Assembly: GCA_947472705.1 (NCBI GenBank)
Contig: CANJDA010000004.1
Span: forward strand, 1 to 32,179
Reading direction: 5' to 3'
From: Flavobacteriaceae bacterium
GTDB lineage: Bacteria; Bacteroidota; Bacteroidia; Flavobacteriales; Flavobacteriaceae
Length of the DNA stretch: 32,179 nucleotides
In this document: piece by piece, positions 5,821 through 10,380 of the stretch
Numbering within the stretch: the first letter of the stretch is position 1
Layout of the letters: the number at the start of each line of letters is the position of its first letter
The notes under the pieces: generated by a model
Database searches by the model: none
What the model was told of the DNA's origin: nothing
What the model saw: only the letters and a program-made list of their open reading frames with translations
Position numbers and translations under genes: made by a program

Positions 5821-6831
5821 TTATTCTAGAACCGAATAATCTCCAATACTTATACTTTTAAAATCACCATCAAATGTAGCGTGATTTCCAATCATGGCAT
5901 TATCTAATTTCGCATTTTTAATATGAGCATGAGTTTGAACCAAACTATTTTGGATTTTAGTATTGGTTACATGAGTGCCTTTCCCTAAAGAAACATTTGG
6001 CCCCACAACCGAATTAATCAATACTACATCTTCTCCAATGTAACATGGAGGTATGATGGTTGAATTTTCTATTCTCACATCATAATCTACCAAATGTTCT
6101 CCGTCATTGTGCAAAAAGGTAAGCATTCTTGAGTTGGTCTCTACTGTCACGTCTTTGTTACCACAATCCATCCAAGCATCAACCTCTCCAGGCACAAATT
6201 TCATTCCTTTGGCCATCATTTGCTTAATGCCATCGTTAATTTGGTATTCCCCACCGTGAATGATATTGTTGTCTAAAACATACTGCAGCTCATTCTTTAA
6301 AACAGCAGCGTCTTTAAAATAATATATTCCAATAACCGCTAGGTCAGAAACAAATTCTTTTGGTTTTTCTACCAACTCTACTATTTCATTAGCTTCGTTT
6401 AACTGAATAACTCCAAAGGCTTCTGGTTGGTCTACTTGCTTAACCCAAATTACGCTGTCAGCGCTTTGATCTAAATCAAAATCGGCACGAATTAAAGTAT
6501 CGGCATAAGCTATTACTGCTGGTCCGCTCAAAGAATCTTTGGCACACATAATGGCATGACCCGTTCCTAAAGCTTCGTTTTGGTAATATATTTTTCCTTG
6601 TGAACCCAGCTTTTCGGCAATGGCTATCAAATCTTCTTCTACTTTTTTACCGAAGCTTTCATGTATTATAAAAGCAATCTCGTCTATCTTTTGACCCAAA
6701 ACTCCTGCAATGTCTTCTACCAAACGGTGAACAATGGGTTTTCCAGCAATAGGAATTAATGGTTTTGGAATGGTTAATGTATGTGGGCGAAGTCGTGAAC
6801 CACGGCCCGCCATTGGAACTATTATTTTCAT
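5821..6831 (-). CDS. Sugar nucleotidyltransferase (NTP_transferase, left-handed beta-helix C-terminus)
   Basis: MKIIVPMAGRGSRLRPHTLTIPKPLIPIAGKPIVHRLVEDI signature; C-terminal hexapeptide-like repeats. Confidence 0.92.
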   Translation of the reverse strand: MKIIVPMAGRGSRLRPHTLTIPKPLIPIAGKPIVHRLVEDIAGVLGQKIDEIAFIIHESFGKKVEEDLIAIAEKLGSQGKIYYQNEALGTGHAIMCAKDSLSGPAVIAYADTLIRADFDLDQSADSVIWVKQVDQPEAFGVIQLNEANEIVELVEKPKEFVSDLAVIGIYYFKDAAVLKNELQYVLDNNIIHGGEYQINDGIKQMMAKGMKFVPGEVDAWMDCGNKDVTVETNSRMLTFLHNDGEHLVDYDVRIENSTIIPPCYIGEDVVLINSVVGPNVSLGKGTHVTNTKIQNSLVQTHAHIKNAKLDNAMIGNHATFDGDFKSISIGDYSVLE

Positions 6832-6850
6832 TTAAATCTTATTTTAACTT

Positions 6851-6930
6851 CAACATTCGCTATTCAAAATTCGTTGTTCAACATTTGAATTTTGAACATT
6901 CAACTTGGAATTATGAATCTTGAAATGTTT
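6851..6930. repeat. Left copy of hairpin-rich repeat flanking the four-helix-bundle gene
   Basis: 6887-6930 matches 7367-7410 at 38/44 positions; 6863-6885 (TTCAAAATTCGTTGTTCAACATT) matches 7320-7342 (TTCAAAATTCGTTATTCAACATT) at 22/23. Internal inverted pair TTCAAAATTC / GAATTTTGAA. Confidence 0.8.
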
Positions 6931-6939
6931 TTATTACTC

Positions 6940-7299
6940 TTATTTTTTACTTCTTGATGTTGCTATACTTTTTACAAAAATGGATATTAATTCGTCATTT
7001 TCTTTTAGTATGACAATCAAATCTTCTTCTTCCTTTATATATAATTTTGCTTTATAAATAATTTTCAAACAAGAATGTGTTTCTCTCAATTCTTTTAAAA
7101 CAAGCGACATTTTATGAATAAAATCATTTCTAGATTCTGCACTTTGAGCTTCACTATAATTTAAAGAAGGTGCTGTTCCCGATCTTACAATTTGACCCGA
7201 CAAATGATTTCCTGCTTTTGTTGCTTTTAAATGGTCTGTAATATTGATTATTTGAACTGCAAAATCAATTAGCCTTTCATGTAAATCATATTTTACCAT
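6940..7299 (-). CDS. Four helix bundle protein (S23 / rRNA intervening-sequence protein family)
   Basis: MVKYDLHERLIDFAVQIINITDHLKATKAGNHLSGQIVRSGTAPSLNYSEAQSAESRNDFIHKMSLVLKELRETHSCLKII is a clear match to the S23/IVP four-helix-bundle family (L...Q..RS.....N..EA..A.S..DF..K...ALKE..E). Confidence 0.92.
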   Translation of the reverse strand: MVKYDLHERLIDFAVQIINITDHLKATKAGNHLSGQIVRSGTAPSLNYSEAQSAESRNDFIHKMSLVLKELRETHSCLKIIYKAKLYIKEEEDLIVILKENDELISIFVKSIATSRSKK

Positions 7300-7319
7300 A
7301 GTTTGTTTTAATTAAATAC

Positions 7320-7410
7320 TTCAAAATTCGTTATTCAACATTCATCATTCAACATTCAGCTATTCAGAATTTTGAACACTCAACTTGGAATGTTCAATGT
7401 TGAAGTGTTT
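7320..7410. repeat. Right copy of hairpin-rich repeat flanking the four-helix-bundle gene
   Basis: See left copy; also contains TTCAACATTC...GAATGTTCAATGTTGAA inverted segments able to form a stem. Confidence 0.8.
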
Positions 7411-7413
7411 TAA

Positions 7414-7848
7414 CTACTTCACCCCTGTACTACCAAAACCGCCTTCTCCTCTTGTGGTTTCAGACAATGCTTCTACCGCAATCCATTCGGCACGTTCGTG
7501 TTTGGCTATGATTAATTGGGCAATTCTTTCCCCGTTTTCCACTATGAAATTTTCATGGGATAAATTTACTAAAATCACACCGATTTCCCCGCGATAATCG
7601 GCATCAACTGTACCGGGTGAATTTAAGACGGTGATTCCTTTCTTGGCTGCCAATCCACTACGAGGTCTAACTTGAGCTTCATAACCTATTGGCAATTCTA
7701 TAAATAATCCTGTTTTAACAATAGCTCTCTCCAATGGTTTTAGGGTTATGGGTTCCGAAAGATTGGCACGCAAATCCATTCCAGCTGAGGCTATGGTTTC
7801 GTAATTGGGTAAATCGTGTTGCGATTTGTTGATGATTTTGATGGTCAT
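7414..7848 (-). CDS. dut: dUTP diphosphatase
   Basis: Conserved dUTPase motifs: [60 protein letters not shown]. Confidence 0.97.
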
Positions 7849-10301: not shown

Positions 10302-10305
10302 TTTT

Positions 10306-10380
10306 TAAATTTGAAAATGTGATAATTTGAAAATTTGAAAATGCTTTACACCATCTTCAAATTTTCAAATACTCAAATTA
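10306..10380. repeat. AATTTGAAAAT-type repeats with inverted arms between atpA and atpG
   Basis: Direct repeats of (A)ATTTGAAAAT in 10308-10343; 10324-10342 AATTTGAAAATTTGAAAAT pairs with 10361-10379 ATTTTCAAATACTCAAATT (17/19). Confidence 0.8.

Follow-up and report, generated by a model that had tools for sequence, protein, structure and literature searches.

In Salmonella, the intervening sequences (IVSs) of 23S rRNA genes include short forms without an ORF. IVSs have been described as units with an S23p ORF and terminal inverted repeats that are excised by RNase III, and proposals of their mobility and horizontal transfer go back 30 years (PMC4990558). In the Coxiella IVS, GACAGAT heptamers lie beside the ORF, and the S23 protein has been reported as a homopentamer toroid (PMC4990558). 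Avd, an accessory protein of diversity-generating retroelements (DGRs), is reported to be homologous to the S23p family (PMC10053308). Arrays of TAACTGA heptamers were found in Beggiatoaceae, cyanobacteria, and Bacteroidetes, with no stated link to S23p (PMC4679880). A search of the open-access literature, with subscription papers and most preprints outside of its scope, returned no publication connecting heptamer arrays with operon-borne S23p genes. We know of no function for S23p/IVP genes outside of rRNA IVSs and of no explanation so far for the cyanobacterial heptamer repeats.

The window, a stretch of 32,179 nucleotides from a Flavobacteriaceae genome, contains a four-helix-bundle gene of this family (S23p/IVP, PF05635, TIGR02436; positions 6940 to 7299, minus strand) that encodes 119 amino acids. 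The gene does not lie in a 23S rRNA gene but at the junction between an upstream dUTPase gene (dut, 7414 to 7848, PF00692) and a downstream sugar nucleotidyltransferase gene (5821 to 6831, PF00483, NTP_transferase), both also on the minus strand. An earlier note, made from the letters of this DNA, had placed an S23/IVP-type gene between two related repeats here, with both neighbors intact and in the same orientation, and the analysis agrees with it on each count. The window protein exceeds the cut-offs of PF05635 (47.8 bits, Pfam cut-off 33.8) and TIGR02436 (80.5, NCBIfam cut-off 24). Its AlphaFold2 model takes on four helices with a pLDDT of 94.6, and the top PDB matches of the model belong to the S23 family (2rld, TM 0.81; 2gsc, TM 0.82), which points to the S23p four-helix-bundle fold as the predicted structure. 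Rfam gave no match. Neither a transposase nor an integrase, as already noted, nor a reverse transcriptase was found among the nine proteins tested around the gene. Carriage by phages or plasmids was considered and rejected, as only one weak phage match and 12 plasmids were found.

That the protein is an Avd-like accessory protein of a DGR is extremely improbable. The fold is the same (4dwl, TM 0.68; DGR complex 8ub7, TM 0.66) and the homology has been reported (PMC10053308), but S23 proteins are closer in structure, no reverse transcriptase is found among the nine proteins tested in the window, and the flanking repeats are heptamer arrays instead of a template/variable repeat pair. This candidate is disfavored on these grounds.

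The 5′ flank of the gene (upstream in the mRNA sense, 7304 to 7412, minus strand) is an array of heptamer words that corresponds to a hairpin and is complementary to the 3′ flank. The 3′ flank (6845 to 6938, minus strand) is a second copy of the hairpin and both a direct and an inverted repeat of the first. The repeat pairs listed in the earlier note were recovered: 6887 to 6930 and 7367 to 7410 match at 38 of 44 positions with an offset of 480, and 6863 to 6885 and 7320 to 7342 match at 22 of 23 positions with an offset of 457. When the 23-nt core was searched in its own genome with up to three mismatches, the only matches were the two flanks and one solo copy, and a control pattern returned zero. 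Both flanks fold better than their shuffles (z of -3.4 for the 5′ flank and -3.2 for the 3′ flank). The flanking repeats are not due to chance.

Either flank on its own is an imperfect palindrome, a point absent from the earlier note, and because each repeat is palindromic, the copies are direct and inverted repeats at the same time. The flanks had been regarded as direct copies. The direct matches are real, but the essential relation is the inverted one, as illustrated by three orthologous loci (L084, L089, and L090) that carry one arm per side without a direct repeat. Structure prediction for the complete cassette lets the two flanks pair around the gene, with 38 nt of the 5′ flank involved. 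According to this prediction, the inverted repeats at the ends of the dut cassette could form a stem around the ORF.

A scan of GTDB genomes yielded 27 Flavobacterium orthologs with 68 to 88% identity, and all 27 lie at the dut–nucleotidyltransferase junction with repeat arms. In 28 of the best 30 dut loci in the genus, the junction is empty, spans 54 to 176 bp, and contains neither a hairpin nor a scar; the nearest dut locus (L037, dut 94% identical) has an empty junction. The gene occurs sporadically among Flavobacterium dut junctions and is not fixed among relatives. Most filled loci carry a hairpin on either side, and the form with one arm per side is found in the three loci named above. 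On a simple reading, the basic unit is arm–gene–arm, and the hairpin is an arm fused to an arm minus the gene. About nine hairpin units are arranged in tandem upstream of the gene in L072 (F. paronense). In L071, an unrelated HTH-like ORF of 132 amino acids lies between two dut-type hairpins (2415 to 2813), directly upstream of the four-helix-bundle gene.

Recombination between the direct copies had been suggested to excise the gene, and such an event was not seen at these junctions. The one readable deletion, in L064 (sister of the filled L070), removed the gene together with the 5′ flank and left behind a portion of the 3′ flank. As the main model, simple direct-repeat excision is rejected on the basis of this locus and the one-arm orthologs.

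The dN/dS values relative to the window gene range from 0.07 to 0.23, and the four-helix protein is therefore under purifying selection. A stop or frameshift is present in at least six of the 27 orthologs (L066, L071, L085, and L089; L088 and L091), and the gene is therefore dispensable. Filled and empty states change at least 10 times on the tree of three neighboring proteins. For the four-helix protein, the grouping of L070, L087, L088, L089, and L090 seen in the neighbor tree is rejected (p-AU 5.6e-5). This tree conflict suggests that the gene reached the same junction horizontally and is good but not final evidence, because the protein is short (119 amino acids).

A new copy was found in another Flavobacterium operon. 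The operon of genome G040 reads marR, cassette, fadB, cassette, fadA, gene names that we presume from their translations, with the second cassette 3 kb away and the two four-helix proteins 97% identical. In the relatives G042, G022, and G107, the fadB–fadA cassette is present and the marR–fadB junction is plain. The cassette pair of G040 represents one recent new copy. A target-site duplication or insertion boundary was looked for at the marR–fadB and dut junctions and was unreadable, because the intergenic DNA of the relatives is too diverged for filled and empty sites to be aligned. Among pairs of cassettes at different sites, more similar proteins have more similar flank words (Mantel r 0.089, 0/500 permutations); the overall correlation is small, since the majority of the pairs are distant. 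A cosine above 0.15 is reached by 2% of these pairs below 50% identity, 23% at 60 to 70%, and 57% at 70 to 80% (7 pairs only). The status of a cassette, as first proposed from the repeats, is borne out by the scarless empty sites, the tree conflict, the recent second copy, and a build that recurs around hundreds of relatives. Mobility is well supported, but movement is rare at the dut junction, where the gene is mostly kept, as all 27 close orthologs retain it there.

These data also bear on the reading as an ordinary vertical operon gene, in which the hairpins would serve RNA stability, attenuation, or translation control and the gaps would be losses. In its favor, all close orthologs are found at one site, L064 represents a readable loss, and some solo hairpins are orthologous between species (C10 of this genome with L428; L432, L434, and L435). 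The reading is nevertheless very unlikely in view of the 10 or more filled/empty changes, the tree conflict and the new copy in G040, the flank words that are unrelated between subfamilies, and the disrupted orthologs.

The genome of the window is 83% complete and has five family genes, all in operon-like settings and each with different flanking words. Judged from the neighbor translations, one of them presumably lies at the groES/groEL junction and one between two CoA-transferase subunits. S23p/IVP genes are present in 119 of 121 sampled Flavobacterium genomes, with up to 17 per genome. The generality set comprises 247 family members with flanks from four phyla, mostly Flavobacterium, extended by a Bacteroidota sample and by chosen genomes of Ignavibacteria, Planctomycetota, and Kiritimatiellota. 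Its common build is a co-directional operon junction, quasi-tandem words of ~7 nt, and a 3′ flank that is reverse-complementary to the 5′ flank, with words that differ from one subfamily to the next. Eight plasmid loci, which share this build, add Cyanobacteriota and Chloroflexota, and it thereby extends over dozens of gene junctions and at least six phyla.

Inverted complementarity between the own 5′ and 3′ flanks (SW≥14) is found in 61% of the 247 cassettes, compared to 3.4% with the flank of another cassette and 0.2% in displaced windows. For 41 representatives at 50% identity, the corresponding values are 41.5%, 0.8%, and 0%, and 598 other genes of this genome reach 1.3%. About 40% of all cassettes and about 60% of the non-redundant ones fall below the inverted-repeat threshold. 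Two of this genome's five cassettes (L003 and L004) score 7.5 to 8, and their words are visible nonetheless. The 5′ flanks display a self-match excess at lags 7, 14, and 21 (0.085, 0.052, and 0.036) that is absent in displaced controls, and 21 cassettes from outside of Bacteroidota display an excess of 0.101 at lag 7 and 0.084 at lag 14. In the small non-redundant set, the 7-mer score is weak relative to a noisy shuffle threshold of its own (18%), although the lag-7 excess does not change (0.091). Within the words, conserved and variable positions exceed uniform decay. Both neighbors are co-directional with the gene in 216 of 226 cassettes and in 30 of 32 non-redundant ones, compared to 55 to 59% for genes of this genome.

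The median array holds 5.6 to 5.7 words per flank (mode 4 to 6), a count that is only suggestive because an array needs ~3 units to reach the score cut-off of 12. Together with the conserved and variable word positions and the close structural matches to S23 proteins, reported as a homopentamer toroid (PMC4990558), this number would suit a TRAP-like autoregulator. Here, the S23p ring would wrap the tandem 7-nt words in the flanks of its mRNA, each subunit taking one word, to control the operon, and mobility would be secondary. Such a regulator is quite unlikely, as the unit count is partly set by the length cut-off, arrays of 8 to 20 words or with a period of 8 nt also occur, and the neighboring genes are functionally unrelated.

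Eight plasmid loci were read, from Bernardetia (Bacteroidota, L436), Cyanobacteriota (L437–L442), and Chloroflexota (L443). Four of the eight (L438 and L440–L442) have an inverted-repeat score of at least 31. On a Nostoc plasmid (L441), near-perfect heptamers are arranged as four AATTCGT, the gene, and four ACGAATT. On a Pseudanabaena plasmid, a four-helix-bundle gene lies between csx2 and cas1 (L439, 1507 to 1875). A gene of another family, DUF559 (PF04480, 104 amino acids), is bracketed by a strong GC-rich inverted repeat, ACACCCCTAAAGTCCCC, on C40 of the window's own genome (L324, 3859 to 4173) and is possibly another type of single-gene cassette.

Hairpins with the same words but no gene are dispersed over these genomes. 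From 767 kb of this genome, 24 solo arrays were taken, and 12 of them match its five cassettes (SW≥18), whereas five random other cassettes give a mean of 1.0 and 0/2000 draws reach 12. The window itself contains a gene-less element, built from a different word family and with inverted arms, at an ATP synthase gene junction (10302 to 10380, minus strand, MFE -26.1), and its AATTTGAAA words are those in the flanks of another of the genome's four-helix-bundle genes (L004). Of 24 genomes with the cassette, 18 contain the dut hairpin, compared to 2 of 24 genomes without it (Fisher 4.6e-6), and solo copies are present in 11 and 2 genomes, respectively (p 0.008); both p-values are optimistic because the genomes are related. 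As to the possibility that the repeat is widespread with no association to the gene, raised in advance as an objection, copies without the gene exist, but the association is present.

For a second word family, all 14 genomes that have its cassette also contain the words, as do 54 of the 107 genomes without it (p 2.4e-4). Its copies are most numerous in G056 (74), G105 (35), G120 (20), and G007 (19). No matching cassette was found among the loci read in the six examined genomes richest in these words (the family genes of G105 being partly covered); the three family genes of G056 carry other words. A strict cognate relation between gene and words is not supported, because the word-richest genomes are without a cassette of those words. 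The fetched solo copies are mostly ~85-nt hairpins between genes, and some are orthologous in place among several species. In three species (L432, L434, and L435), solo dut-type arms lie just upstream of an apparent ribulose-phosphate epimerase gene (rpe), seemingly around its promoter, and the arrangement in L427 looks similar. In G007, an array of word-bearing units repeats with a period of ~204 bp (L424; C22, 133967 to 134806).

The hairpins may then be autonomous repeats, spread by host or other factors, with the four-helix-bundle gene as a passenger between two of them. This composite is unlikely. It is compatible with the gene-less copies, which are common also in genomes without a matching gene such as G056, with the unrelated ORF between two hairpins in L071, with the arms that bracket the apparent rpe promoter, and with the Beggiatoaceae TAACTGA arrays, published without a stated S23p link. 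If the gene were a passenger, however, the same protein family would not recur with unrelated words across at least six phyla. The words also follow the protein to other sites, as seen in the rise from 2 to 23 to 57% similar pairs with identity, and half of the solo arrays match the genome's own cassettes.

The dut cassette is probably a small selfish element of the 23S rRNA IVS kind in an operon junction. The evidence in hand consists of the build, its recurrence in multiple phyla, the junction position, purifying selection, patchiness, the tree conflict, the new copy, and the gene-less derivatives. Weighing against this reading are the cassettes below the inverted-repeat threshold, the word-rich genomes with no matching cassette, the unreadable insertion boundaries, and the shortness of the protein behind the tree conflict. 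As a unit, the element consists of two inverted arrays of ~7-nt words that enclose an S23p/IVP gene. From the evidence, we infer a mechanism in which the cassette would be transcribed with the operon and the arms would pair into a stem that sets off the gene as a loop, as in IVS RNA before the RNase III cut. The ring-forming S23p protein may bind the words in the arms of its own element and, with host machinery, help the element to persist and spread. Intergenic co-directional placement means that insertion would be harmless to the neighbors.

A wider proposal is more tentative, and we consider it possible but on balance doubtful: free-standing S23p/IVP genes in at least six phyla would be the coding part of a class of mobile elements without a recognizable nuclease or recombinase. 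The oligomeric S23p protein would recognize the heptamer words of its element and cause copies with and without the gene to spread into operon junctions, and the 23S rRNA IVSs would be the rRNA-inserted minority. If the protein drives spread, DNA would have a spreading route without a known recombinase on the element, and the cyanobacterial heptamer repeats would be tied to a protein family. The shared and measurable build, with its inverted heptamer arrays and subfamily-specific words, makes S23p function open to simple tests. The wider recurrence of this build matters more than the single dut locus.

Compared to known systems, the cassette looks like a widespread small mobile element related to the 23S rRNA gene inserts. 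It shares with the IVSs of Coxiella, Leptospira, and Salmonella the S23p/IVP ORF (present in some IVSs), stem-forming terminal inverted repeats, short forms without an ORF, and a sporadic distribution with horizontal transfer. As in the Coxiella IVS, heptamer repeats adjoin the ORF (PMC4990558). In contrast to the IVSs, the cassettes lie in protein operon junctions, their arms are arrays of subfamily-specific words, and many different cassettes occur per genome. The protein is under clear purifying selection here, whereas the Coxiella S23p is reported as probably not made. Avd of the DGRs has the same four-helix-bundle fold, but a reverse transcriptase, a template repeat, and a variable repeat were not found near the cassette gene.

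REPIN/RAYT systems likewise have short palindromes dispersed between genes and a gene with such repeats on either side. The link of the dispersed copies to the gene flanks is mixed here, with the dut hairpin in 18 of 24 genomes that have the cassette and 2 of 24 that do not, and another word family that is abundant also where a matching gene is absent. The cassette differs from these in that no HUH (Y1) transposase is found at the locus (the gene and nine neighbors) and the four-helix-bundle protein is without a known catalytic site. In addition, a genome holds several different gene cassettes, and the word families are also abundant without a matching gene. With the cyanobacterial STRR and TAACTGA repeats (PMC4679880), the arrays share tandem 7-nt intergenic words and a patchy occurrence. 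In the literature searched, these repeats were presented with no tie to S23p genes, whereas on the cyanobacterial plasmids read here, inverted heptamer arrays bracket such genes.
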